Shown piece after piece: positions 7,342 to 47,580 of a stretch of DNA of 64,000 nucleotides. Position 1 is the stretch's first letter; the number at the start of each line of letters is the position of its first letter. The notes below the pieces were generated by a model. That model did not search any database. It had not been told where the DNA came from and saw only the letters and a list, made by a program, of their open reading frames with translations. This stretch comes from Streptomyces flaveolus. Lineage in GTDB: Bacteria > Actinomycetota > Actinomycetes > Streptomycetales > Streptomycetaceae. A program made the position numbers and the translations under genes. The stretch spans positions 62,001 through 126,000 of the forward strand of contig NZ_JNWV01000015.1 in the NCBI RefSeq assembly GCF_000716535.1. Direction: 5' to 3'.

Positions 7342-7781
7342 GGCCGGAAGGCGGGCAACTGCTGGAACACGCGGTCCAGCAGGCCCTCGGCCGGCTTCCA
7401 CGGCCCGAGCTGCCCAGCGGCGGGGACCGGCAGCGGCAGCTCCTGCACGTCCTCAAGGACCAGGTGCCAGGCGCCGGCCTGTGCCCACGGTGTGCAGGGC
7501 TCGGTGCCTTCGGGGTCCTGGTGGCAGTCGATCAGGCGCGCGATGCCGATCACGGCTCCGGTGGTCAACTCGCGGCCGCGGATGGTGCGGGCGATCAGCG
7601 GGACGCGCAGGGCGGGCCGGTCGATCCGCTGGCCCGCGTGCAGGAGCATCCAGCCGCGCCAGCTCCAGGGGCGGGGGCGGTTTTCGATGCCCTTGGCGCC
7701 GGTCAGGATGCAGGTGGCGTGCGGCTGCTGGACGCTGATGCCGCGGATCCAGTCGCTCTGCGGGAGGGGCGCGGTGCTCAT
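7338..7781 (-). CDS. ASCH-domain protein
   Basis: 147 aa. The N-terminal pattern ISVQQPHATCILTGAKGIENR..WSWRGWMLLHAG is the ASCH fold (PUA-like beta barrel), thought to bind RNA or modified nucleotides. The ATG at 7781 overlaps the stop of the GGDEF gene (ATGA). In related Streptomyces plasmids, as I recall, ASCH and GGDEF genes are also adjacent, so the broken GGDEF gene upstream may reduce its expression. Confidence 0.75.
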   Translation of the reverse strand: MSTAPLPQSDWIRGISVQQPHATCILTGAKGIENRPRPWSWRGWMLLHAGQRIDRPALRVPLIARTIRGRELTTGAVIGIARLIDCHQDPEGTEPCTPWAQAGAWHLVLEDVQELPLPVPAAGQLGPWKPAEGLLDRVFQQLPAFRP

Positions 7782-8227
7782 GCTGCCCGCCCCCAAATGG
7801 CCGTTCCCGGGCGCCCGGCGCGGCGGCCGTTGATGGACGGCACCGTGGTGTGCGCGGGCGAGGCGACGGCGGCGCGGCCCGAGTGCTTGCCGTCGTAGAG
7901 GGCCGCGTCGGCGGCCCGCTGCAGCACGCTCAGGTCGCGGGTGCCGAGGACGTCGGTGGTCGCGGCGCCGACCGAGGCGGCGACGTCGACGGTGCGGCCG
8001 TCCTCGAGGACGACCGGGGTGTGCAGCATGCGGACCAGCTGCGCGAGGCGCTGCTCCGTGCGTGCGGCGGGCAGCGGCAGGACGACGGCGAACTCATCGC
8101 CTCCGAGGCGGCCGACGGATGCGCGGGGGCCCGCCCACGCGGTGAGCCGGGCGGCGGTCGCAGCGAGGACGGCGTCGCCGGCCTGGTGGCCCATCGTGTC
8201 GTTCACGTCCTTGAAGTGGTCCTGGTC
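7778..8227 (-). pseudogene. GGDEF-domain gene, 3' part (split by a 6.4-kb element)
   Basis: Reads DQDHFKDVNDTMGHQAGD...GRLGGDEFAVV..., the second half of a diguanylate cyclase domain including an intact GGDEF active-site motif. The frame is open to 8227, where similarity stops at the edge of the inserted element. The first half lies at 14599-14826 and ends exactly at the preceding residues (AVIII). Rejoined, the product would be about 225 aa with one membrane segment. A GTG at 8206 could start a fragment lacking the first third of the domain. Confidence 0.85.
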
Positions 8228-8244
8228 GGAAGCGCGCGGGTTCC
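8228..8244 (+). repeat. Left end inverted repeat of the element
   Basis: GGAAGCGCGCGGGTTCC, directly after the last GGDEF-homologous codon. It matches the inverse of the right end, with GCGGGTTCC identical. Confidence 0.7.
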
Positions 8245-8262
8245 CGGAATCCTGAACGTTGG

Positions 8263-8323
8263 TAAGCCGGAACCTGCATGCCAGCTGATGGCTGCGGCGG
8301 TCCCACGCGCGTGTTCCGGCCTA
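8263..8323. repeat. Subterminal inverted repeat
   Basis: TAAGCCGGAAC (8263-8273) is matched by GTTCCGGCCTA (8313-8323), 10 of 11 paired. It lies just inside the left end and could be an accessory recombinase-binding site. The rest of 8245-8550 shows no gene. Confidence 0.45.
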
Positions 8324-8550
8324 GCTGACGGGACATGGTGAGCGAAGCCCGGTTCTGCCAGGAGGATTGGGAAGACCACGGCTGATCTGAACGACGCATC
8401 CTGCTTGGGACTTCGACGACGGCGACGAACTCACCCGGCGACCGCCCTGACAGGCTGCTCTGGACGATCACCGAACTGGGCGCTGGTCCGCCTGTCCTGT
8501 GCGGAGATCAGCAAGTGGTGCCTTGTCCGGATAGTTGAGGGAGTTGGCGG

Positions 8551-9069
8551 GTGTCCGCATTGGACTTCTACGCTCACGTCGCCGTTTGCGGTGAGGTCCT
8601 GGGAGTTGGCCTCGGTGCCGACCCCGAAGCCTGGGAAGCCGCCCTGGGGGCGGCATGCCTCGATGTTCCCGGTGGTGGCCTACTGCGGCGGGACTACGGG
8701 CTCGTGGAAGTCAACTTCTCGCCGGACCAGCCAGGGCGGCAAGGGCAGATGTCGTGCTTCGGCTTCGGCGTGAAGATCCAACGACTGCTGTACGACCAGT
8801 CCCCGAGCACCGTGCCGTCCCCGCTCTCGCGGGAATACGGGGAATTCGCACCCAGAGTCCCCTTCAAGGAACTGCAGACCGCCATCCTGGCCCTGGGCCA
8901 CACGATCGAACTCGACAAGCACAACACGTCGAGTGACATGGACTGCTACCGCGTATCCGCGTCCGCCGCCCGCATCCACGTCGTCGCTGACCCTGACCCG
9001 TACGGGTCAGGCGACCCAGATCCAGACGGACATCAGAGGGGCGACGTCTGGTCCGTCGACGTGTGGTGA
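8551..9069 (+). CDS. Hypothetical protein (element cargo)
   Basis: 172 aa from a GTG. It is the only plus-strand gene between 4 and 33 kb, in keeping with foreign origin. The sequence (MSALDFYAHVAVCGEVLGVGLGADP...LRRDYGLVEVNF) resembles small Streptomyces proteins of unknown function that I associate with toxin-immunity loci; I cannot assign a family. No membrane segment. Confidence 0.6.
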   Translation: MSALDFYAHVAVCGEVLGVGLGADPEAWEAALGAACLDVPGGGLLRRDYGLVEVNFSPDQPGRQGQMSCFGFGVKIQRLLYDQSPSTVPSPLSREYGEFAPRVPFKELQTAILALGHTIELDKHNTSSDMDCYRVSASAARIHVVADPDPYGSGDPDPDGHQRGDVWSVDVW

Positions 9070-9221
9070 CCAGCCGGGCGGCCTCCCGGCAGCACCCGTG
9101 ACATCTCTTCGCTACGAGGAGCGCCGGGCAACGATCACCTGCGCGGCGGGCAACGATCTGAAGAGCGCGCGCCACCCAGCTGATCAGCCACACTCAAGCC
9201 CCCCGTGCCGCATCCAACCGG

Positions 9222-9875
9222 CTAGCCCGCAGGCCAATGTGGGTTCGGCATGCCGTCATCGCTCATGTGCGCCCGCTGCCAGATCCCTTTCCAGTTGAAC
9301 GGCGTCTCCGGGACGAACCGGTGCCGCTGCCCGCACGGACATGGCGCCAGCACCCACGCGCACCCACGGCACAGCTCTACCCAGCCGTGCCCGGTCGAGT
9401 TCGACACCAGCGGTCTCTCGTCCCCGCAGGCGGGGCAGCCGGGGAGGTCGGCGCCGTCCAGAATCGCGTTCTGTCGCCGGACGTACTCAGGCAGCCGCAG
9501 CGACGGATGGTGAAACGGGTCTTCATACCAGGCGCGGTTCGGGCCCTCCCACCAGCTCCGCAGCCACCACGGTCGCGGGTTCACTACAGCCCGCCGTCCC
9601 GCCCGCTTTTCCGCCCGGCGTTGCGCGGCGTACTCCTCCGCTCGCGCGAGCCACAGCACCCGCGCCTCATGCAGTTCCTCCACCGCCCGCACCAGCGCGT
9701 CCGGGTCCGCCTCCAGCCGCCGGGGGATCGCGGCGCTGAGCGTGAGGTGGTGGTACGTCGCCCGGAAGCCGTACGGAGCAAAGAGGGTGATGCAGGTCCG
9801 CAGCGCGCTGTGCCGGCGGCGGAGGGGGAGACGGGCGTCGTGCACGTGCGCTCGGTGGGTCAGGAAGCTGGTCAT
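9222..9875 (-). CDS. Hypothetical protein with C-terminal zinc ribbon (cargo)
   Basis: 217 aa. The N-terminal half is helical and Arg/Glu-rich; the C-terminal half has CPAC...CRGC...CPCG, a zinc-ribbon pattern. It overlaps the upstream gene by ATGA, so the two form an operon inside the element. Function unknown. Confidence 0.6.
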   Translation of the reverse strand: MTSFLTHRAHVHDARLPLRRRHSALRTCITLFAPYGFRATYHHLTLSAAIPRRLEADPDALVRAVEELHEARVLWLARAEEYAAQRRAEKRAGRRAVVNPRPWWLRSWWEGPNRAWYEDPFHHPSLRLPEYVRRQNAILDGADLPGCPACGDERPLVSNSTGHGWVELCRGCAWVLAPCPCGQRHRFVPETPFNWKGIWQRAHMSDDGMPNPHWPAG

Positions 9876-10501
9876 TGTATGGGCGCCAGGTCCAGTACCC
9901 GTGCCAGGGCGGCAGTGACGGCGGCGGCGTGTGCTGGCAGGTGTTGTTCAGCCCAGATTCCGGCAAGACCGTGGAAGTCCTGCAAATCCTGCTGGGCACC
10001 CGCGACGAGCCTGCGTGCCTGGTCCACCGACAGATCGATCACCGGGCTGTCGTCCGTCCCGTAAGCGTCGAACGTCAGCCGGACAATGTCGCCAACGCGT
10101 TCGGCCACCGACGACGGATCGTGGCCGAAGTAGGAGCAGCCGGTGCCGTCGAGCACCTCCAGCCAGTCCCGCCAGGTCTCCAGACCGTTGCAGCAGCCCG
10201 GCTCGACGAAGACGGTGTCGGTGGCATTCTTGGTCACCCGGAACCCTCCGGCGGCGAACAGATCAGGCATGGTGAGCAGCCCGTGCAGGAATGTGCCGAG
10301 CGGGTCGGTCGGGCACGGCCCGTGCTCCTCCTCCGGCTCGAAGTCGTTGCAGGCGGCGATCTGCATAACCGCCGTGCCGACCTCCGCCGGAGTGAGCTCC
10401 CCGTTCAGCACGAGGTAGCCATATGACTCGTGCTCGCCAACCGGCCAGAGCGCGAAGTCGTCGGCGGCGGAGATCTCCAGAACGGGTTGCATCACAATCA
10501 C
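9872..10501 (-). CDS. Hypothetical acidic protein (cargo)
   Basis: 209 aa, acidic, with a Cys pair in VEPGCCNGLETWRDW and a central DGTGCSYFGHDP. The start is uncertain: GTG at 10501, GTG at 10495 or ATG at 10492, none with a clear ribosome site. Forms an operon with the zinc-ribbon gene through a 4-bp overlap. Not recognised. Confidence 0.58.
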   Translation of the reverse strand: MIVMQPVLEISAADDFALWPVGEHESYGYLVLNGELTPAEVGTAVMQIAACNDFEPEEEHGPCPTDPLGTFLHGLLTMPDLFAAGGFRVTKNATDTVFVEPGCCNGLETWRDWLEVLDGTGCSYFGHDPSSVAERVGDIVRLTFDAYGTDDSPVIDLSVDQARRLVAGAQQDLQDFHGLAGIWAEQHLPAHAAAVTAALARVLDLAPIQ

Positions 10502-10573
10502 ATGGGGATGATGCCGGACCCACTGCTACACCGCCACGGGCTTTCAGCTGGCATCGGGCTCGGATCGGGCCTG

Positions 10574-12904
10574 CTACCTGGGCAGTTTCGCGGTGCGCTC
10601 CGGGCAGGCGGCGCCGACATAGCGCATGGCGGTCTGCGCGGTGATCCCGAAAAGCCGCATCAGCTTGAGGGGATCACCGGTGGCAAACGCCTCGTTGAGC
10701 ATGCGGTCCTGCCGCAGGCCGACGAGCGTGACGTTCTTGGGGAGGGTTCTGCGAAGCAATGTTCTGCTGACCACCGGATGATCTGGGTCGAGGGCGGTCT
10801 TCTGGCTGACGAGAAGGTAGGGGTTCGCCGATGCCGGCCAGCGGTGGTGGCGATAGGCGAGCCACTCGCTGGCGAGTCGGTGGGTGAATTCCTCCAGGTA
10901 GAGGGTGTGCCGCAGCAAGCCGCGGCGGACTTCAAGAGTGCCGCGAGCAAGGTTGAGGTCGTTCGTCCGAATCGTGCGAAGCTCTTCACCAGGCAGCGCG
11001 TGAATGGCCACCAAGGCGATGACCAGGCGGCTGAGCGGAGACTTTGCCTGATCCATCAGTCCGGCCAGTAGATCGCTGCGCATGGACTTCGGGAGTCCCT
11101 TCAGGTGACCGACCGAAAGCTGGCGGGTCGGGTCCCGGAAAACCATCCGTTCCCGCTTGAGCGCCTTGAACAGGCTGCGCAGGCTCACCGCGACCTGCTG
11201 GCGCTCTTGTCCTGACAGGCCGGAGACTACCGCCTCAATATGGTCAGTCGTGATCTTTCGCAGAGTGGTCACGCCGGCGGCTGTCCACGTGGTGAGGACG
11301 GGTTCAATGTGGGCGAGGTAACGGCGAATGCTGCGGTAATCGCGGACCTCGCCCTCGCGGCGCCCCTGGCTGCGCAGAAGGGTCACCCATGCGTGGATCT
11401 CGCTGGCGAGCGGGTCCGGGAGGACACTGATCGCGACCTGGATCCACGCGAGATTCACGTCCTGGCGGCGGTCCGGATCATCAATGAGCAGACCATGAGA
11501 ACGGAGGAACTGACAGACCGGCTTCGCCGCGAGAGTCGCAGAACAACTGGCCAAATCGTGGACATCGCGCTCCAGGATGGCGTTCTCAGCGCCCAGCCAG
11601 TGCACCAGGATGGTCAGCGTGCGGATGTTCTTGCGGTAGTCAGGCGTCCGACGATCGAGGATGAGCTGGTCGAACTCCTCGACCAGCCGCCGAGCTTCCT
11701 CCGACAGCGGCAACTCGCCAGGACCTCGGCGCCCCAGGCGGGCCAGCACAGGCGACCAGTCGCGTCGGAGATTGAAGAGCGTTTCCTGCCCGCGGGCGGC
11801 GTGAGGCGCCGCTGTCCCGTCGGCTCCACGGAGCGATTGGTCTCCGATCAATGGCTGAACCCCTGCCGTAGTACCGGCGGGCAGGTCGATCTGGAGTTGC
11901 GTGGCTCGCGCTGGGTGAGTCCCTGCCTCGTCGAGGAGGCGATAGGGGTAGCACCCGCGACAGTGACCGCGACGCGAGGGAAGGTCCTCGCGCCGGCAAC
12001 GCAGGCACCGGCTTCGGGCGTACTTCTCGCGCCAGTGCTTGCAGGGGTTGCAGCGGAACCCTCGCCAGCCACCGGGGATCCACGCATGGCAGTCCCGGCA
12101 CTGGCGCGGCGTGAGCGGCGGCTGGGATGCCGGAACGGTGATGTAGGGCGTGCTGGGCTGATCGGCCGGGTAGAACCGCAGAGGCTCCGACGCCTCGGCC
12201 AGCAGCCCAGCGCGCAGGAGGATCACACGGACCGCGTCCCCTCTGCTCGGCAGCTCCCGTAGGGACGCTTCGGGTACCAGGTCGGTGCCCTCGGCCTCAC
12301 TGACTGCCAAGGCGAGACGCACCATCTCGGCGACCCTGTAGTACCACCCTCGGTTGAAACGATGCTCGCTCGCCAATGCGACGAGCGCCTCTCGGGCCCG
12401 ATCCCAGCCGGATACCGGTCGGTCGGCGATCGCCCGGACTGTCGTCACAGTCAGCGTCCTGGGCAGGGTAAACAGCGGAAGCTGCCCCCGAGTCGCCGGC
12501 TTCAATACTTCGGCAGGAGGCTCGTCGAGGTTTGTGCGTGCTTGGTTGAGCTTCCGCTTCCAATCCGCCATCACATCGCGCCCGCCGCCCACACCCCGGC
12601 GCAGGGGCCGTGCCGAAATCGACCCGTCTCGGTAGCTCCCGATCGTCAATTGAAGGGCACGCGGTCGCGCCTCCTCGATGCCCAGGGCCCACTGTGCGTC
12701 GTCCTCGACCCGGATAGCCTGTAGGCAGGAACGGCACAGCCCGTCGGTGTTCAGGTAGCCGTCATGGAGGCAACGCGGGCACACGCCTCGTCCTCGATGC
12801 TTCTGCTGCCAGGCTTTGCACCCAGCGCACACCCAGCTGTGGTGCAACAGGACCCAGCCCAGACACGACTCGCAACTCCGGGCCACACCCCGGTCCGGTC
12901 CCAT
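10574..12904 (-). CDS. Zinc-finger protein with degenerate tyrosine-recombinase C-terminus
   Basis: 776 aa. Two Cys-rich blocks (CESC..CAGC..CPRC..CRSC near the start and CRDC..CNPC..CLRC..CRGC near 265-330) suggest zinc ribbons for DNA binding. The last 200 residues follow the catalytic fold of tyrosine recombinases: a helix with EELRTI, then GLRQDR in place of HxLR, and a terminal TAMRYV with a candidate Tyr. The usual second His is not visible. Likely a partner recombinase of the 423-aa integrase, comparable in role to the second recombinase of Tn554. Confidence 0.7.
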   Translation of the reverse strand: MGPDRGVARSCESCLGWVLLHHSWVCAGCKAWQQKHRGRGVCPRCLHDGYLNTDGLCRSCLQAIRVEDDAQWALGIEEARPRALQLTIGSYRDGSISARPLRRGVGGGRDVMADWKRKLNQARTNLDEPPAEVLKPATRGQLPLFTLPRTLTVTTVRAIADRPVSGWDRAREALVALASEHRFNRGWYYRVAEMVRLALAVSEAEGTDLVPEASLRELPSRGDAVRVILLRAGLLAEASEPLRFYPADQPSTPYITVPASQPPLTPRQCRDCHAWIPGGWRGFRCNPCKHWREKYARSRCLRCRREDLPSRRGHCRGCYPYRLLDEAGTHPARATQLQIDLPAGTTAGVQPLIGDQSLRGADGTAAPHAARGQETLFNLRRDWSPVLARLGRRGPGELPLSEEARRLVEEFDQLILDRRTPDYRKNIRTLTILVHWLGAENAILERDVHDLASCSATLAAKPVCQFLRSHGLLIDDPDRRQDVNLAWIQVAISVLPDPLASEIHAWVTLLRSQGRREGEVRDYRSIRRYLAHIEPVLTTWTAAGVTTLRKITTDHIEAVVSGLSGQERQQVAVSLRSLFKALKRERMVFRDPTRQLSVGHLKGLPKSMRSDLLAGLMDQAKSPLSRLVIALVAIHALPGEELRTIRTNDLNLARGTLEVRRGLLRHTLYLEEFTHRLASEWLAYRHHRWPASANPYLLVSQKTALDPDHPVVSRTLLRRTLPKNVTLVGLRQDRMLNEAFATGDPLKLMRLFGITAQTAMRYVGAACPERTAKLPR

Positions 12905-12910
12905 CGGCTG

Positions 12911-13258
12911 TCAGCTCGGCGGCAGTGAGCGAGGCCCGCTGCCGTGCCGGGTACGCGGCACCGGCCGCAGCGGGCCGGCTGGCAGCTGTGACTCAGCGCC
13001 AACGGCCTGCTGGCCAGACTCCGGCGCTGCCTGCGTGTCTGCGAGCGGCTCCGCCTGAAGCAGATCAGCAACCGTGCAGTTCAGCGCCGTACAGATCTTG
13101 TCGAGGTCATCGAGGCGTACTGTGACCGGGGCACCGCCCCACAACGCGGCGACCTTGCTCAGCGAGGGGTTAAACCCCACCTGCTGGAAGGCCGCCAGCA
13201 CCTCGGTAGGCCGCCACAGGTCACGCTGGGCCGCCACCATCCGCAGATTCCACTTCAC
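12911..13258 (-). CDS. Small XRE/Cro-type HTH protein
   Basis: 115 aa from the GTG at 13258, overlapping the integrase stop (GTGA). Residues 5-70 form an HTH (LSKVAALWGG...VTVRLDDLDKICTALNCTVADLL) typical of the Cro/C1 family. The tail is Gln/Pro-rich. Its place between two recombinase genes suggests a directionality or regulatory factor for the element. Confidence 0.75.
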   Translation of the reverse strand: MKWNLRMVAAQRDLWRPTEVLAAFQQVGFNPSLSKVAALWGGAPVTVRLDDLDKICTALNCTVADLLQAEPLADTQAAPESGQQAVGAESQLPAGPLRPVPRTRHGSGPRSLPPS

Positions 13259-14526
13259 CGCAGGTTCCCCCTGTCCATCACCAGTCGTTGCGCCGCCTGC
13301 GAGCTCGCGGCCAAGTTCGCCACCTCCGGATCGGCGTGCGCGGTCGCCATGTACCGAAGTGTCGTGGTGGCCCAGTCGTGCCCTAGGACCTTCTGCACCT
13401 CCCACAACGTCATCCCGCGCTCGTAGTTATGGGTCGCGCAGGCGTGCCGCAGCAGGTGCGGGAACAGGTCGGCGACCGGGCCCGCGAGGTAGTTCGTAGC
13501 CGCAGCGTGTAGCGACCGCCGGAATGTAGAAGGGACGATCGCCGGGGCGATCGGTAGATTCAGAGCGGCTACCGCAGTCGGCTTGCGTTCCGACGGCCAC
13601 AGAGGCGCCCGTGGGTGTTCGGTGTCGTCCCCGAACTCACCCCGGATCTCTTCGATGTACCACCACAACAGGGCGCGCCCCTCCTGGAACATGTACGCCT
13701 CGCGAGGCCGGGGCCCGGAAGCGCGGGCACCCTTACCTTGGACAACGAAGCGACCCCACTGGCCGTGCTCCCAGTGAATGTCACCCATGCACACCCCGCA
13801 CAGCTCCGCGGCACGGACACCGGACAGGTAGGCGACCTTGGTCATCACATAGTCGCGGCAGGCGACGAAGTACTTCCGTGCGTTCGGCAGGTCCTCGCGC
13901 CAGCGCGAGAAGAAGTCGCGCATCGCCGTCTGTGATGGCGGGATCCGAAGCCCGAAGTCCCCACGGTGCCGGGGCCGGTTGAACAGGTCGATCGGTGACT
14001 CAACTGCAGCACCAAAGCGCCGCATGATCTCGCCGGCATACCGCTGTTCAAGGAAGGCAAAGTACGCGTCGATCTTGTTGATCTTCGCGCGCAAAGTCGA
14101 AGACGCTCGTTTCCCAGGTCCCGCGAAGTACCGGTCGACCTCCCTCGGCGACAGCTGCCAGGGAACCGTGCCGTAGTAGTTGCATACTTCGATGACTGGC
14201 TTGACCAGACCATCAAGGGTGGCCGGTGCCAGCCCTGCCGCGTCCCGGGCCCACTGGTACTCCGAGAGCGTGTCGAGGAAGAAACTCTCCTCATCATGCG
14301 CCGAAACCCGGGCCTGCCGACGGCGCTGTAGCGTCACGACATCCGCCAGCCCGGACTCCACCGCCACGGCTGCCGGGTCCACCGGAGTGGCGGAATCCCC
14401 CGCAGGGCTGAGGAGTCTCAGCAAACGACTTTCGGAATCTGACACGATCACGGAAATTACAGGCATCACTCGTGGAATCTGCGAGTTACTGCGGAGATCC
14501 CACACCTTCGAGTGAAGGCCCGCCAC
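13255..14526 (-). CDS. Tyrosine recombinase / integrase
   Basis: 423 aa. The complete catalytic set is visible: Arg in GVRAAELCG (~238), Lys in VQGKGAR (~265), HLLR (357-360), GH (382-383) and Tyr in TLRYM (~392). The SAM-like core-binding domain precedes it (res 75-170). It would catalyse cutting and joining at the element's ends. The start may be the GTG at 14526 or the ATG at 14466; neither has a strong ribosome site. Confidence 0.9.
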   Translation of the reverse strand: MAGLHSKVWDLRSNSQIPRVMPVISVIVSDSESRLLRLLSPAGDSATPVDPAAVAVESGLADVVTLQRRRQARVSAHDEESFFLDTLSEYQWARDAAGLAPATLDGLVKPVIEVCNYYGTVPWQLSPREVDRYFAGPGKRASSTLRAKINKIDAYFAFLEQRYAGEIMRRFGAAVESPIDLFNRPRHRGDFGLRIPPSQTAMRDFFSRWREDLPNARKYFVACRDYVMTKVAYLSGVRAAELCGVCMGDIHWEHGQWGRFVVQGKGARASGPRPREAYMFQEGRALLWWYIEEIRGEFGDDTEHPRAPLWPSERKPTAVAALNLPIAPAIVPSTFRRSLHAAATNYLAGPVADLFPHLLRHACATHNYERGMTLWEVQKVLGHDWATTTLRYMATAHADPEVANLAASSQAAQRLVMDRGNLR

Positions 14527-14577
14527 AGAGCGATCTAGCTGCTGCGATGCGGATCCACCGTGTCACACAGCCTTGAA

Positions 14578-14595
14578 GGAACCCGCACGTACTCC
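14578..14595 (-). repeat. Right end inverted repeat of the element
   Basis: On the minus strand reads GGAGTACGTGCGGGTTCC, matching the left end repeat with one gap and sharing GCGGGTTCC. Three bases later GGDEF homology resumes. Confidence 0.7.
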
Positions 14596-14598
14596 ACT

Positions 14599-14826
14599 AA
14601 TGATGATCACGGCCGTGTCGTCGCCGTGGCGGGCCAGGAGCCGGCGGGCGCGGGTGGTGTAGGTGTCGCGGCGCAGCAGTCCGGTCAGCGGGTCGCGGCG
14701 GGTGGCGGCGAGCCGCTTATGCAGCGTGACCGCGTGGACTGCCCAGCCGGTCAGTGGCACGGCGGCGGTCGTCAGTAAGAGGGTGCGCTGGCCGATCCGG
14801 CCCTGAACGCGCAGAAGGGACGACAT
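14599..14826 (-). pseudogene. GGDEF-domain gene, 5' part
   Basis: Encodes a single membrane helix (LLLTTAAVPLTGWAVHAV) and the start of a GGDEF domain, RRDPLTGLLRRDTYTTRARRLLARHGDDTAVIII. The frame then runs into element sequence and stops at 14563. The continuation is found at 8227. The intact gene would make a membrane-bound diguanylate cyclase, producing the second messenger c-di-GMP that controls Streptomyces development. Confidence 0.85.
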
Positions 14827-15334: not shown

Positions 15335-15535
15335 TCAGAACTCCAGGTGGATCGTGATCGGGCGCCGGGGATCACCGGTGCTGGTGTGGACGGTGCGGCG
15401 GTGCGCGGCGAGGCCGGCGGCACCGCCCTGGATCGGCAGGTGGCACTCGGGGCAGCCGTGCCACCACTCATCTCCGGCCGGGAGTTCGGCCGGGGTGAGC
15501 GGGTGCAGGTGCGGGCCGTCGGCGGCGCGGCTCAC
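15335..15535 (-). CDS. Small C2H2-like zinc-finger protein
   Basis: 66 aa from a GTG overlapping the kinase stop (GTGA). It has CPECHLPIQGGAAGLAAHRRTVH, a C2H2-like finger rare in bacteria but seen in actinobacterial plasmid genes. Coupled to the P-loop kinase gene. Confidence 0.65.
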   Translation of the reverse strand: MSRAADGPHLHPLTPAELPAGDEWWHGCPECHLPIQGGAAGLAAHRRTVHTSTGDPRRPITIHLEF

Positions 15536-16491
15536 GCGACAGCGTCGGCGTACTGCGCTTCCAGGTCCGCGCGGCCCTCGGGGTCGTCGTCCTGGTCGTC
15601 GTCGACGCCGTCGCTGTGGACGGTGCAGACGATGTCCGGGTCGTTGTCCATGGCGCCGGTCAGCGCCTGATGCAAATCGGTGATCGAGTAGACCGGCGCC
15701 CACGCCTGCCCGGCGCACTCCGCATCGAAGGGGCAGGGCAGCAGGACGTCGAAGCCGAAGTCTCCTTCGCCGTCGACGTCGTCGCGGTACGCCAGGGTGA
15801 GGTACTGCTGCCCGAGGCGGATCTCCGCGACGCGGTCCCGGCCGGTCACCAGGTCCGAGCCGGGCCGCCACCGCCACAGCGGCAGGATCTCCGGGCCGAA
15901 GAAGCGGCGGACCAGCAGCAGGTCGCCCAAGCCGGTGCTGCCGTCGCGCCCGAGTTCGGCCTCCCGGGTCTGCGAGAGCCGCTTCAGGAACGGCTCCAGG
16001 CGATACAGGGCGTCGGCGAACACGACGGTGTTGAAGCCTTCGGCGGCCAGCCGCTGATGCGAGTGGACCATGGCCTGGTGCTGGGCGCGGACGGTGTCTT
16101 CGGGCACGCGCCGGTTGTCCGGCCGCGGGCCCTGCCGCTCCAGGCAGACCGGCAGCGGCGTGGCGACGACGACCGCGACGGTTGGCATGCCGTGCCGCTT
16201 GGCGGCCATCACCAGCTCCACCCGCACGGACTGCTCGCAATTAGTCGCGTCGATCACCGTGTTGAGCTTCCGGGCCATCCGGTGCTCCAGGATCAGCTTG
16301 AGGACGTCGGCGGCATCAGCAGTGGCGTCCTGCCGACCGGGGTCATCACTGACCACGCCACGCAGATCATCGAGGGAGAGGACCTGGGAGGCCAGCCAGG
16401 TGCGGGCCAGCGTCGACTTGCCCGCGCCGGAGGCGCCGATCAGCACGATCAGCCCGTTCTCGGGCAGGTCCGGGTACAGCACCGAGGTCAT
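15532..16491 (-). CDS. P-loop kinase-like protein (AAA_33/polynucleotide-kinase type)
   Basis: 319 aa. Walker A GASGAGKST at res 19-27, then SLDDLRG and a VIDATNCEQ strand as in T4 polynucleotide kinase-like enzymes. The C-terminal 140 residues are acidic and of unknown role. The substrate could be RNA or DNA ends or a small molecule. It overlaps genes on both sides (ATGA and GTGA), so it belongs to a four-gene unit with 15335-17344. Confidence 0.78.
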   Translation of the reverse strand: MTSVLYPDLPENGLIVLIGASGAGKSTLARTWLASQVLSLDDLRGVVSDDPGRQDATADAADVLKLILEHRMARKLNTVIDATNCEQSVRVELVMAAKRHGMPTVAVVVATPLPVCLERQGPRPDNRRVPEDTVRAQHQAMVHSHQRLAAEGFNTVVFADALYRLEPFLKRLSQTREAELGRDGSTGLGDLLLVRRFFGPEILPLWRWRPGSDLVTGRDRVAEIRLGQQYLTLAYRDDVDGEGDFGFDVLLPCPFDAECAGQAWAPVYSITDLHQALTGAMDNDPDIVCTVHSDGVDDDQDDDPEGRADLEAQYADAVA

Positions 16492-17461: not shown

Positions 17462-17926
17462 TCACGCGGCCAGCCGGTGAACGGCCGGGGCCGGGAGGGT
17501 CATCAGGCTGCTGGGGTCGACGGGCGTGCCGTCGAAGCACTCCAGGCAGCAGCCGAGCTTCTTCGAGAGGCAGATGTAGAACCGCCTCCCGCACTGGCCA
17601 CAGGTCTGCCTCGCTGCCATCGCCCGGTCGAGCGCCCACTCCTGAGCGAGCGTCGGCGTCCGCTTGGGCTTGGCCAGGTCGACGCGGAGCAGGTAGCCGC
17701 GGGTGGGATGACGGCAGGACCACTGCGGGCGGGTCGCGCACAGCCTGCAACGCAGGATCGCGACCGGGCCCTCGTTCTCGCCGGGGCTCAGCCCCATCTC
17801 CCGTAATTGCCGCCGGGTGACCAAGCCTTCGGGCACCGTGCTGCGGTCGTACTCGGGCAGCGTCGCGTCACTGCGCGGCATCCGTTTCACCTCGGGGCGG
17901 CGGCGCTTCTTCTTCGGGCGCGGCAT
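17462..17926 (-). CDS. RRQRL-type zinc-binding protein
   Basis: 154 aa. It has a basic start (MPRPKKKRRRPEVKR), TRRQLREMGLSPGE in the middle, and Cys pairs CRLC, CGQC and CLEC. This matches the Streptomyces group known as RRQRL motif-containing zinc-binding proteins, common on conjugative plasmids and of unknown function. The ATG at 17926 follows GGAG. Confidence 0.72.
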   Translation of the reverse strand: MPRPKKKRRRPEVKRMPRSDATLPEYDRSTVPEGLVTRRQLREMGLSPGENEGPVAILRCRLCATRPQWSCRHPTRGYLLRVDLAKPKRTPTLAQEWALDRAMAARQTCGQCGRRFYICLSKKLGCCLECFDGTPVDPSSLMTLPAPAVHRLAA

Positions 17927-18179
17927 CACCTGCTCCAGGCGCCGGGCAGCCGGTCGGGGCGGTGCGGGTAGCGGGGGCCGGGACGCTGCGGGCGGGGCCG
18001 GCCGATCCGGCGGCGCGGACGGGGAATGAGCACGAGCGGTTCCTCCAGTGGTCGGTGGACAGCGCTGCGCCCCGCCGACGTCGTGCTGGTGTCGGCGGGG
18101 CGCCACGTGCGGCCGGGCGGCCTGTCCGGTCCTCGCCGACCCCGAAGCGGGGCGGGCGAGGGCCAGGCAGGGCGTCAGG

Positions 18180-43315: not shown

Positions 43316-46300
43316 TCAGGACTTGGCGTACTTCCGGACCGCTCTGGGCAGCCGGCGGCCGGTGACGGACCGCCAGGCCCGCTCCAAGGCCGGGACACCG
43401 AGGCTGCGGGTCTGCAAGCGGAGGATGAAGGCGGCGTGGGCGGTGGCGGGGTGCGGGAACTCCTCGAAGGTGGTGATGCTGGCCACCACGTGGGTGAGGG
43501 CCTCTTCGTCGCGGCGCTGCATCTCGGCAAGCAGGCCGAGCTGAAGCAGCGATCGGGATTTCGCGAGCGGGTTCCCGACCTCATGGGCGAGTTCGAGGGC
43601 TTTGCGGCACCACCACTCGGCCGCGTCCGAGCGGCCTCCCCGGAAGGCGGCAATGCACCGTAAGTGGTAGATGGACCACAGGCCCGGCCGATCGCCGATG
43701 GCCATCAGGGTGTCCACGGCCTGGGCGTACCATTTCTCGGCCCTGTCCTGGTCTCCACGCTGACTGGCCACGGCGCCAAGTTGCTGGTAGACGGCGGAGG
43801 CGCAGTGGTCGTCATTGGTGGTCTGGCAGATCTCCAGGGATTTGTTGAGCCATGCATCGGCTTCGGGAAGCCGTCCGCGCATGCGTGCCAGCGTACCCAG
43901 ATGCTGGTAGCTGTGGGCTGTCTGCGGGCGGCTGCCCAGCTCCTCAAAGATGGCCAGCGCCTTCATCGACCACGTCTCGGCCGCCGCGAATTTGCGGGTC
44001 TCGAGGGCCACGATCGCGAGTTGTTGGTACAACGTGCCGATGGCGCTGCGATCGTTCATCTCCATGGCGATGGCCATCCCGCGCAGGTAATGCTCATACG
44101 CCTGCGCGAAGTGCCCGTGCTCGCGGGCGAGGACGCCAAGTTGCTGCTCGGTGGTAGCGATCCGCTGCGAGTCACCGAGTTGCTCGAACGCGCTCCGAGT
44201 CTGCCCGAGCAGCAGTTCCGCCTCCTCCCGTCGGCCGAGCGGGTTGGCGACGATGCTGAGGTCCGCTCGGACGAGGGTGATCCGCTTCTCCAGCTTCAGC
44301 CACTCCAGCAGTTCGAGCGCCCGGAGGTACCAGGTCCTGGCCTCCGTCCACTGCCCCCGCTCCATGGCGACCCTGCCGAACTGGTGGTACGAGGTGGCGC
44401 GGTGGTCGGCCCGGTCGCGGCCCGGCGGCAGCGCTTCGACAGCTCGGTGGATGTCCTGGAAAGTCCGCTCGGCCTGATCGCACAGACCTTGGCGGAGTTC
44501 CCGGTGCCCCTCCGCGCTGACCAGCACCACCCACAGCTTCCCGGCGTCGGTGAGGAGCCCGGGGGCGGTGCCGTCGGGCTCCTCGAGAAGCAGCCGGACC
44601 CGGTCGACCCAGCCCCGTGCTTCGGCGTAGAGGCCGCAGAGGCTCCAGTAGTCGTCGAGCGGGCAGACGATGTCGTACGCCTGCTCCCAGAGGCCGTGGT
44701 CCAGCGCGTGTCCGAGCAGGTGGCCCATTGTCGGCCGCAGCTTTTCGAGCGAGGAGACGGCTTCCCCGGAGTCGCCCTCGTAAAGTTCGGCTTTGAGGGT
44801 CTCGCAGTAGTAGGCCACGACGTCGACCGCGGCACGCAGGGCGGCCGCCCGCTGGTCGGTGAAGTCCGACTCCTCAGCACGCCATTGGGCGAGCAGGTAG
44901 GCCGGAAGCGAGGGGTGGTAGCGGAAGGACCCGGCGGTCTCGGTGAGCAGACCGACGCCGGCGGCCCGTTCCAGCAACTTCCGCCAGTCCATCCCGGTGC
45001 GGTCCTCGAAGCGGGCGGGGACGTCCTTGTGCACGGACAGGAGCGCCAGCAGCACGGTGTCGATCGTGCCGTGGAGCAGCGTGATGACGGCCAGCGCGCG
45101 TCGGTCCGGCTCGGGCAGCTGGGAGAGCGAGTAGGCGATGCTCGCCGCGAGCGAGTCGCCGCGTGCTCCTGCCCCGTCGCCCAGGAAGCCGCCTCCGGCC
45201 GGGAGCTGCGCCGCTCCCTCGGTGAGCGCGTGGAGCATCTCCCTCGGCTCCCGGGTGTCGAGCATGGGGAGGATGAGGCGCATGCTCAGCGGATGCCCGT
45301 CCAGCCACGTCATCAGGTCACCGAAGACGCGCTGCTCGCGCTTGCGTGCGGTGCCGGGATAGGCGGCGAGGAGCTGGTCGGCGTACTCCACCGCCTCTTC
45401 CGGCTCCAGGCACGGGACCTCGATCCGCAGCGGGACGGGGCCGAGCCAGTCTTCGGAGGTGCGGCTGGTGAGGACGATCGCGCTGCGTCCGCGGGCGGCG
45501 ACACCTTCGAGGAAGCTGCGGAGTTCGGCGCGCTCGGCCTCGGAGAGCCTCGGAACGGCTCCCTCGGGGTCGGGCATCGTGTAGGCGGACTCCACGTTGT
45601 CCCACAGGAGCAGCAGGTCGCGCTGCGCGAGCGCATCCTCGACGGCAGCTCTGCGCTCGGCTGGGCCCAGCACGCCGAACCGGTCGGCGTCGAACAGGCG
45701 CCGCCCGATCCGGTCGATCACGCCCGGAAGGCCGAAGGAGGCGAGACCGGGTTCGAAGGAGTGCATGATCACCTCCTCCGGTCCGGCCACTGCCCCGGTG
45801 TCCCGGCACCATCGGCCGAATGCCTTCGCCAATTCCGTTTTGCCCACGCCCGCGGTGCCGTGAAGGACGACCACGTGGCGCAGTCGGGCAGCCACGTCCA
45901 GACGGAGCAGCAGACCGTCGCGCCCGATGAACTCTCCTACCAGCGCTGTCCCGTCGGCATCCTCGTGGGCCGGGGGATGTGTCTTGGCGTCGGAGACGGT
46001 TGCCCTGGCGGCAGCCCGGGTGACGCGGTCCACGGCGCGGTCCAGGATCCGGGCGTAGGGGTCCGGGTTCGCTCCAGCGGCCGGGCGGCCGGCTTGCATG
46101 TCCGGCAGGACGACCTCGCTGCTGCTGTACAGGACGGGCACCATCCAGTCGGCAAGCGGAAGTTGGCCCACAGGGGACGGACGCCCGTCCCGCACCGCGA
46201 GTTGTCGGCGACCGACCGCCACGGCCTCGGACACCCGGTCCCCGGTGAAAAGGCGTTCGTAGAACGCTGCCATGAATTCCGCGGCGGCCACCGTGTACAC

Positions 46301-47296
46301 GGTGTACGCCATGGCCAGCACCGCGCCGGCGCCCTCTTGCAGCAGGCGGGTCGCCACCGTGGCCTCCACCTGTGCCGCTAAGGTGGCCGACTGGCAGGCG
46401 TTGAGGACCACCAGCGGCACCTGGGCGGCAGCCAGCACTCTGGCGACCCGTTCTGCCGACACCAGTTCCGCGCCGCCACCGGGCCGCTCAAAGGTGAGCA
46501 GGCCACGCGGCCCCGGGCCGTGGAACGTCAGCGGGCTCCGACGGCCACTCCTCGGGCCAGCGGAGATGGTCCGCGCACCACCCGCGTCAGCCTCTCCGAG
46601 AGAGCCGTGGCCGTCGAAGTGCACGATGTGATACGGGCGGCCCTCGTCGTGCGCCTGGCGCAGCACCTGCCCTAGCCGATCGAGTGTCGGAGGCCGCAGA
46701 ACCACCAGTTCCACCCGGTCGCGTACCGGCGCGAGCCGCTCCAGCAGGGGACGAGCGATGGTCCGGTAGCCGACGTCGGCCGGGCCGTCCGGCCGCGCGA
46801 TGACCATCAGCACACGCAAGCGTGAACCGCCGATCTCGACGACCCGGCCCAGCCGTTCCGTCAGCAGGCTGCGGGTCACGGCCACCCCGTCTAGCACCAG
46901 CGGCGACGGCCGCCCTGGATCTGTCATCAGTTCCCAGGGCAAGGCGAGCAGCTGCGCGGAGTCAGAGCGGACCACGATCTCCAGAGCGCCTCCCGAGGAG
47001 AGGGCGCGGAGGTAGAAGTCCCTGGCGGGCCCGGAACCGAGCAGTGCGGCGAACACCTCGATGCCCCACCCGCGTAGCCGCTCGGCGATGTCCGGTCCGC
47101 GTTCGCCGTAGACCCCGAAGGGAGCCCGCAAGTAGTCCTCCAAGTACCAGCGCAGCTCCTCCAGTTCCTCGGCAACCAGCGGCCAGCGCAATGGGTCCGT
47201 CTGGACGGCGGGTGCTGGGTGCGGTTCACCGGCGGGCCATCGCGCCACGGACATGCGGCCATTGGCGCACAGGTCCAGCACCAGACGTTCGACCAT
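43316..47296 (-). CDS. CHAT protease - STAND NTPase - TPR protein
   Basis: 1326 aa from the ATG at 47296 (GGAGGGGG upstream). Residues 50-395 are a CHAT caspase-like domain with catalytic His in FDGHG (~230) and Cys in LNACQS (~301). Then a STAND/NB-ARC-like NTPase: Walker A LHGTAGVGKT (~478-487) and Walker B-like DLLLLWDN. From about 850 to 1300 there are TPR repeats (e.g. AYEHYLRGMAIAMEMNDRSAIGTLYQQLAIVAL). This is the NLR-like layout protease-switch-sensor known from bacterial conflict and antiphage proteins. Confidence 0.88.
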   Translation of the reverse strand: MVERLVLDLCANGRMSVARWPAGEPHPAPAVQTDPLRWPLVAEELEELRWYLEDYLRAPFGVYGERGPDIAERLRGWGIEVFAALLGSGPARDFYLRALSSGGALEIVVRSDSAQLLALPWELMTDPGRPSPLVLDGVAVTRSLLTERLGRVVEIGGSRLRVLMVIARPDGPADVGYRTIARPLLERLAPVRDRVELVVLRPPTLDRLGQVLRQAHDEGRPYHIVHFDGHGSLGEADAGGARTISAGPRSGRRSPLTFHGPGPRGLLTFERPGGGAELVSAERVARVLAAAQVPLVVLNACQSATLAAQVEATVATRLLQEGAGAVLAMAYTVYTVAAAEFMAAFYERLFTGDRVSEAVAVGRRQLAVRDGRPSPVGQLPLADWMVPVLYSSSEVVLPDMQAGRPAAGANPDPYARILDRAVDRVTRAAARATVSDAKTHPPAHEDADGTALVGEFIGRDGLLLRLDVAARLRHVVVLHGTAGVGKTELAKAFGRWCRDTGAVAGPEEVIMHSFEPGLASFGLPGVIDRIGRRLFDADRFGVLGPAERRAAVEDALAQRDLLLLWDNVESAYTMPDPEGAVPRLSEAERAELRSFLEGVAARGRSAIVLTSRTSEDWLGPVPLRIEVPCLEPEEAVEYADQLLAAYPGTARKREQRVFGDLMTWLDGHPLSMRLILPMLDTREPREMLHALTEGAAQLPAGGGFLGDGAGARGDSLAASIAYSLSQLPEPDRRALAVITLLHGTIDTVLLALLSVHKDVPARFEDRTGMDWRKLLERAAGVGLLTETAGSFRYHPSLPAYLLAQWRAEESDFTDQRAAALRAAVDVVAYYCETLKAELYEGDSGEAVSSLEKLRPTMGHLLGHALDHGLWEQAYDIVCPLDDYWSLCGLYAEARGWVDRVRLLLEEPDGTAPGLLTDAGKLWVVLVSAEGHRELRQGLCDQAERTFQDIHRAVEALPPGRDRADHRATSYHQFGRVAMERGQWTEARTWYLRALELLEWLKLEKRITLVRADLSIVANPLGRREEAELLLGQTRSAFEQLGDSQRIATTEQQLGVLAREHGHFAQAYEHYLRGMAIAMEMNDRSAIGTLYQQLAIVALETRKFAAAETWSMKALAIFEELGSRPQTAHSYQHLGTLARMRGRLPEADAWLNKSLEICQTTNDDHCASAVYQQLGAVASQRGDQDRAEKWYAQAVDTLMAIGDRPGLWSIYHLRCIAAFRGGRSDAAEWWCRKALELAHEVGNPLAKSRSLLQLGLLAEMQRRDEEALTHVVASITTFEEFPHPATAHAAFILRLQTRSLGVPALERAWRSVTGRRLPRAVRKYAKS

Positions 47297-47406
47297 GGTC
47301 ACCCCCTCCATGGGAAACGGCCTGCTGGCCGCTCTTGTTCCGCAGCGGAGGATAGGCGAGCACTGCTCGGCCGCGCGCCGGATTGACTGGGCACTCGACC
47401 CGCAGA

Positions 47407-47580
47407 TCATCGACGTAAGGTTTCTCCTTCCGTCTCCTTCAGGGTGCCCATCACCAGATGGAGCTGGGTGATGGGCAGCCCGGTCAGCGTGAGCGTCGCC
47501 TCCGCCATGCCGTCCCGGTACTCCACCTTCGCATGGGCTTTGCCTCGATCGGATAGCCGCAGGTGGACCGTCAGCCCCTC
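47407..47580 (-). pseudogene. C-terminal fragment of an unknown protein
   Basis: The frame ending at 47407 reads LSDRGKAHAKVEYRDGMAEATLTLTGLPITQLHLVMGTL, which looks like a genuine beta-rich C-terminus, but upstream it runs antisense into the gre gene and no start is visible. It may be a small gene ahead of the CHAT gene that lost its 5' end. Confidence 0.35.

Follow-up and report, generated by a model that had tools for sequence, protein, structure and literature searches.

A putative site-specific transposon with a zinc-ribbon pseudo-recombinase in a split GGDEF gene of Streptomyces flaveolus

The window analyzed here is a stretch of 64,000 nucleotides from Streptomyces flaveolus (RefSeq assembly GCF_000716535.1, contig NZ_JNWV01000015.1; C15:62001-126000), whose genome size is 10.35 Mb. 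In this window a GGDEF (diguanylate cyclase-like) gene is split in two by a 6371-bp element. Judged from sequence comparisons, the element is with a probability of about 75% a site-specific transposon belonging to an actinobacterial family whose hallmark is an operon of three genes: tnpA, a gene for a small helix-turn-helix (HTH) protein, and a third gene encoding a zinc-ribbon protein of 776 amino acids (aa). Elements with this trio are a real, site-preferring transposon family. TnpA would cut and join the DNA, with a circular form as the probable intermediate. The third protein may bind the core sites beside TnpA and help synapsis or target choice. We infer the circular intermediate as well as the roles of the HTH protein and of the zinc-ribbon pseudo-recombinase.

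The split GGDEF gene and the element termini

The insertion is described by the following features.
14599..14826, minus strand: GGDEF (diguanylate cyclase-like) gene, 5' half, residues 1-76 (from the sequence and intact relatives)
8229..14599, minus strand: inserted element, 6371 bp, ends good to about 1 bp (from ends common with relatives and the empty site)
14579..14599, minus strand: left terminus, TAGTGGAGTACGTGCGGGTTC (from comparison with relatives)
8228..8251, minus strand: right terminus, GATTCCGGGAACCCGCGCGCTTC and one base that is possibly target (from comparison with relatives)
7778..8227, minus strand: GGDEF gene, 3' half, residues 77-225, carrying the GGDEF motif (from the sequence)

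The 5' half reads ...DDTAVIII at 14599 (minus strand), followed by 11 foreign codons and a stop, and the 3' half opens with DQDHFKDVND at 8227 (minus strand). Re-reading agrees with the initial annotation that these are consecutive half-genes (AVIII/DQDHFKDVND) separated by an insert. That annotation had also proposed looking for an uninterrupted gene in relatives. The joined 225-residue protein aligns full-length and in one piece with such genes, the best intact plasmid match being 88% identical (NZ_CP109216.1) and another 85% (CP003276.1). GGDEF matches of any kind were found in 3148 plasmid records, and in 196 of these a single place spans at least 80% of the query. The clean split by a tyrosine-recombinase element is seen again at the DNA level, as the joined flanks match Streptomyces althioticus plasmid DNA at 107 of 120 nucleotides with zero gap. 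With this zero-gap rejoining, no target duplication is visible, and 1 bp is ambiguous. At the insertion point, 17 of 21 intact loci have (G/A)T|CGA(C/T) and the other four have GT|TGAC or GT|GGAC. Since intact relatives align in one piece, the flanks join without a gap and the bases at the insertion point are conserved, the empty GGDEF site is real.

Only residues 1-76 are retained in the 5' half, and the GGDEF motif is separated from the N-terminal half of this one enzyme. As read from the gene, the insertion truncates a predicted diguanylate cyclase-like protein ahead of its GGDEF motif; a loss of c-di-GMP synthesis in the cell, as proposed in the initial annotation, would be a possible consequence. 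A search of the same genome for an intact close copy returned only the two halves at E 1e-25 (10 scored candidates; the search did not extend to other diguanylate cyclases).

In the S. althioticus plasmid, the neighbors of the intact gene are a TraB-annotated protein, an RRQRL zinc-binding protein, an ATP-binding protein, Lsr2, ParA, and ParB. The earlier placement of the gene in a transfer operon was not borne out, as the nearest intact plasmid carries it in its backbone, with TraB- and ParAB-annotated genes on either side, and this is not a proven transfer operon. In the window, an RRQRL protein (17462-18106; NF041638, E 3.6e-33) is encoded on the same strand, 2.6 kb beyond the GGDEF 5' half. 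A ParB-like protein (267-1568) is on the opposite strand, unlike in the S. althioticus plasmid.

Comparison with relatives defines the left end as TAGTGGAGTACGNGCGGGTTC and the right end as GAATCYGCGAACCCGCGCGYTTC. Within the left terminus, GTGCGGGTTCC reads as an imperfect inverted repeat (10/11) of the right end. A circular form would join the right end ...CGCGCTTC to the left end TAGTGGAG.... Matches to tnpA that include its N-terminal part start about 74-140 bp inward from the left end. Among the fetched loci, with the window included as L096, there are 37 distinct left-end-like matches with at most four mismatches; a tnpA match lies within 1.9 kb downstream in 25 of them and in none of the other 12. 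The GGDEF 5' half stands before the left end, at the same codon, in three loci (the window, L016, and L119); the G160 locus is identical to L016 and was counted as the same strain.

The three genes of the trio

13255..14526, minus strand: tnpA, tyrosine recombinase (Pfam match, alignment)
12911..13258, minus strand: HTH protein, 115 aa (PF13443), start overlapping the tnpA stop (Pfam)
10574..12904, minus strand: third gene, putative 776-aa zinc-ribbon pseudo-recombinase (profile, fold, alignment)
12140..12883, minus strand: third protein residues 8-255, zinc-ribbon and helical repeat 1 (hhalign against repeat 2)
11435..12121, minus strand: third protein residues 262-490, zinc-ribbon and helical repeat 2 (hhalign, alignment)
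10586..11425, minus strand: third protein residues 494-773, tyrosine-recombinase fold with P638 at the first catalytic arginine position (R-I), no His at 728 or 754, R731 and Y762 kept (fold, alignment)
10676..10684, minus strand: third-gene codons 741-743, intact here, where right ends lie inside the third genes of relatives (L119/L121, L124)

TnpA has 423 aa as called, with shorter starts annotated in most relatives, and matches Phage_integrase (E 2.6e-15). Residues R238, K265, H357, R360, H383, and Y392, read as the catalytic set of tyrosine recombinases, are invariant in all 12 aligned sequences (the window and 11 others). On this alignment TnpA is likely to perform strand exchange. The small protein matches HTH_26 (PF13443, E 6.4e-10) and may act as a directionality or regulatory factor in place of TnpC or GinD.

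The third protein had been annotated as a recombinase fold fused to zinc fingers with a degenerate active site, and this description stands. Its two zinc-ribbon repeats match each other in hhalign (98.8%, E 4.4e-17), indicating a tandem duplication, and each of the eight cysteines of the second repeat is kept in 63-65 of 66 alignment rows. The C-terminal part matches the tyrosine-recombinase fold. There the R-I position is replaced in 59 of the 64 rows with a residue at that place, and no row has His at 728 or 754. The second arginine (R-II, R731) is kept in 62/62 rows and the tyrosine (Y762) in 61/62. The direct Pfam match is not significant (E 0.24); the case for recombinase identity comes from the fold. 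The profiles of TnpA and of the third protein match with an hhalign probability of 1.8%, so the two are not close duplicates. The third protein also diverges faster than TnpA (roughly 60% vs 88% identity in many pairs). Third-gene fragments or distant relatives are found elsewhere in the same genome (C63:23645-24510, C62:17789-18022, and C89:5830-6177).

Family members and target sites

The trio has the same order (tnpA, HTH, third gene) in ten fetched loci (L018-L024 and L128-L130). It was read in seven Streptomyces plasmid loci and in plasmids of Nocardia, Pseudonocardia, and Rhodococcus, and in these four genera its genes stay side by side. pREL1 carries a degraded copy at 186-188 kb. At E 0.001, the third protein has a match in 114 of 295 genomes of the genus, short and distant matches included. 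At E 1e-15, 6 of 346 genomes of the phylum have a match, two of them outside the genus. The genes after the third gene differ and are arsenic-related (L022), sulfur-related (L018), or for polyketide synthase (L020). They may be cargo, a status kept conditional because the right ends were not located in these three loci. In L020 (S. rimosus pSRP1.2), two tandem third genes (56% identical) follow one tnpA and HTH gene, with the polyketide synthase gene downstream. Plasmid pSHJG1 (CP003276.1) has a second, very distant trio (L125:10250-13952; a recombinase, a small HTH-like protein, and a zinc-finger-rich third protein) beside a main-type trio. The main third-protein profile does not recognize the third protein of this distant trio (E 15).

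Among the fetched loci there are 26 distinct right ends with at most four mismatches: 11 in GGDEF genes, two in RRQRL genes, three before a PGG motif (Nudix-like), and 10 elsewhere. All 11 GGDEF right ends are at the identical base, GT|CGAC. Note that a split GGDEF gene was the reason for fetching some of these loci, which biases the set. A search with the right end and four GGDEF bases is less biased and gave 10 plasmid records. Eight were read (L079 assigned by equal record length), with five right ends at GGDEF, one in an RRQRL gene, one in a third gene, and one elsewhere; the two unread records are further S. californicus records. Other targets, named from their motifs, are presumably a Nudix box, a Tn3-type transposase, and an IS transposase. 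An assignment of the PGG flanks of L061, L072, and L091 to RRQRL genes proved incorrect; reading them from both sides, where this could be done, suggests Nudix boxes.

The identical base of all these GGDEF insertions could also come from one ancient insertion inherited by many plasmids without site-specific reinsertion. Ten GGDEF right junctions were compared (the eleventh, L120, was left out), and they form three right-end types. Members of one type share 83-97% identity over the final 330 bp of the element vs 58-80% on the GGDEF side. Between types, the last 330 bp are only 52-64% identical, with GGDEF sides up to 88% identical (NBC464 and G169). One inherited insertion would not explain this mismatch between element and flank and is highly improbable. 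By these junctions, the GGDEF insertions look like independent events.

Two right ends of different kinds (L119/L121 and L124), outside the 26, lie at codon 742 of a third gene. The third-gene site GA(T/C)CC(C/G)CTCAAG compares with GACCACTTCAAG at the GGDEF site, six or seven bases from the junction. This suggests that a motif near the junction, common to both sites, may be read; it was not seen at the other targets. At L124:12087, the right end of one element falls within the third gene of a second element, which itself ends at GGDEF on the right, a nested insertion. At L088:410-691, a GGDEF 5' half runs into third-gene codon 742, a possible scar of excision at an internal pseudo-site. Recombination at this codon is a lead for the origin of right ends without a trio. 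The precise join in L088 is ambiguous, and the breaks in L118 and in one copy of L119 are at third-gene codons 726-731, not 742.

Three open reading frames (ORFs) follow the third gene in the element of the window.
9872..10501, minus strand: 209-aa ORF, paired with the 217-aa ORF (621-bp ORFs at the same place in seven plasmid loci, position only)
9222..9875, minus strand: 217-aa ORF with CxxC pairs (relatives in 19 plasmid records; adjoins the right end in seven loci read)
8551..9069, plus strand: 172-aa ORF near the right end, possible cargo (no family match)

A search for defense genes among the element proteins gave no match. A right-end module of a 621-bp ORF, a 654-bp ORF, and the right end occurs in L118, L120, L122, L123, and L124, with no annotated trio in the stretch read; these may be non-autonomous derivatives. 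A third-gene tail was found in L118, L120, and L122.

A Pfam scan of nine long ORFs of the window gave a match in three. At 43316-47410 (minus strand), a 1364-aa CHAT protease-like and TPR protein (CHAT E 5.6e-23; weak SAVED_CHAT match) is a possible defense or signaling protein. At 15532-16491 (minus strand), residues 9-160 of a 319-aa protein are similar to the kinase portion of bacterial polynucleotide kinase-phosphatase (TIGR04075, E 5.4e-38, below its cut-off).

Known transposon classes and alternative explanations

The element shares several features with the Tn554 family, namely site preference, no visible target duplication, a length of about 6 kb, and two recombinase-fold genes with a small gene. 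The gene order of Tn554 is tnpA-tnpB-tnpC, against tnpA-HTH-third gene here. Only one recombinase of the element has the full catalytic set, and the zinc-ribbon duplication and the HTH_26 small protein are further differences. Van Houdt 2012 (PMC3414803) described actinobacterial Tn554-related pairs of one long (611-828 aa) and one short recombinase, both with the catalytic motif and most with a TnpC relative, with pREL1 among the examples. The pREL1 recombinases at 87.5-90.7 kb and 264.8-267.7 kb served as Tn554-type representatives and appear, by position, size, and order, to be the published pairs. A plain transposon of this type with a zinc-finger-fused TnpB would agree with the TnpA profile, which matches the pREL1 Tn554-type recombinases at E 6.2e-11 and 8.1e-11 in a 15-sequence set (hhalign 96%). 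In PMC8138268, the TnpA subgroup is that of Tn554. The TnpA matches, however, look superfamily-level: all four pREL1 recombinases score (weakest 3.3e-7), and the distant second trio of pSHJG1 scores 5.5e-27 and the trio relatives 8.5e-158 or better, the latter within the profile's own sequences. In the same set, the third-protein profile gives the short pREL1 recombinases E 0.0024 and 0.0032, one long one 0.7, and the other long one no score, vs 1.4e-23 for the pREL1 trio copy, which is absent from the profile. In hhalign it matches the two long proteins with probabilities of 0.4 and 3.8%. Trio and Tn554-type pairs lie at different places in pREL1, and on these profile comparisons the pREL1 Tn554-type recombinases are not trio members. 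With R-I and both His missing from the third protein, two catalytic recombinases are not found. The initial label "Tn554-like" thus fits the behavior of the element (site preference, no visible duplication) and not its membership, as the third protein lacks the full catalytic set and its profile gives no confident match to the pREL1 Tn554-type recombinases. A plain Tn554-family transposon is very unlikely.

According to PMC10214605 and PMC5385486, such transposons form five groups (ICE/IME, SE, GInt, RIT, and Tn554), and in two of them, GInt and SE, one of the proteins has the recombinase fold but lacks catalytic residues. The third protein is likewise a recombinase-fold partner without the full catalytic set, and this partner is, by analogy, its nearest precedent, GinC and Tfp being likened to it by description. 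As described there, GInts resemble the element in the operon at one end, the fixed target gene, and the partner (GinC) missing the first arginine. They differ in having two catalytic recombinases (ginA, ginB), GinC, GinD, and 10-11 nt imperfect direct repeats; between the ends of the element there is one gene for a recombinase with the catalytic set, and repeats of this kind were not recognized at the element. SEs, in the same texts, share the site preference and the partner Tfp without the RHRY motif. They carry IntA, Tfp, IntB, Srap, and a 6-bp footprint, whereas the element has no second catalytic recombinase. No 6-bp block of the SE/Tn554 type was recognized by eye, and C, A, or G may precede the GAC codon. 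RITs are also modules of three adjoining genes. Their three recombinases each have a possible catalytic motif in PMC3414803, vs one of three proteins here, the others being the HTH protein and the degenerate third protein.

What the third protein does may be seen differently. It could regulate by binding DNA, in the manner of the recombinase-fold repressors SroF, MrpR, and YopR, and take no part in strand exchange. We regard this as unlikely: a pure repressor would hardly need Y762 and R731, which nearly every row retains. Moreover, the gene order and the constancy with tnpA resemble GInt and SE modules, in which the partner is reported to be essential (GinC) or suspected so (Tfp) in PMC5385486 and PMC10214605. 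The same R731 and Y762 would fit a protein still catalytic in an unusual way, with the remaining residues supplied by TnpA in trans, but the nearly general loss of R-I and the lack of both His in every row make this rather improbable. The insert could also be a common type of integrative element or satellite that has one integrase and carries the HTH and third genes as cargo, which would agree with the single canonical integrase at one end and the variable genes after the trio. This is very unlikely, as the trio is kept adjacent across genera, and in L088 both ends are about 4.7 kb apart with little besides the trio between them.

Several observations weigh against the site-specific trio transposon as proposed here. 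Arg is retained at the R-I column in 5 of 66 third-protein rows, and the structure model of this protein is of moderate confidence (pLDDT 71.1, pTM 0.30). In the genus, the left end (at most two mismatches) occurs in 23 of 295 genomes and a reversed control pattern in 12, so that part of the 23 are chance matches; 7 of the 25 places found have no mismatch. No trio is present within the 12 kb read upstream at three GGDEF-B loci (L118, L120, and L122). Split or truncated GGDEF pieces in L011, L083, L084, and L121 end near the same codon with no recognizable element end. In the set partly chosen for split GGDEF genes, 15 of the 26 distinct right ends are not at GGDEF. L018 and L019 are 98.8% (TnpA) and 94.9% (third protein) identical, and L089 and L091 96.6% and 94.2%, yet each pair sits in different genes. 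Since near-identical pairs do so, it is not claimed that the third protein sets the target; what points to a targeting role is its anatomy.

In the titles and abstract starts of open-licence literature, no description of the trio or of the GGDEF target was found. Tentatively, and at somewhat less than even odds, the trio elements may be a further class beside ICE/IME, SE, GInt, RIT, and Tn554, with one catalytic recombinase and a site-selecting zinc-ribbon pseudo-recombinase. Their sites would be conserved motif codons of plasmid or mobile genes (the diguanylate cyclase active-site strand, the Nudix box, the RRQRL protein, transposases, and the element's own third gene). The element would ride a conserved Streptomyces plasmid backbone and switch off plasmid signaling.

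Members of the element family have more than once split a diguanylate cyclase-like plasmid gene at a single base, and recognition of the trio would allow a group of actinobacterial plasmid genes now annotated as "hypothetical protein" to be named. The trio family bears on the question of why certain tyrosine-recombinase transposons require extra recombinase-fold proteins whose active site is incomplete, such as GinC and Tfp. It offers numerous natural variants in which the ends are defined, the target sites are mapped, and a single enzyme is catalytic, and therefore the role of the inactive partner and its zinc fingers is directly testable in laboratory Streptomyces.

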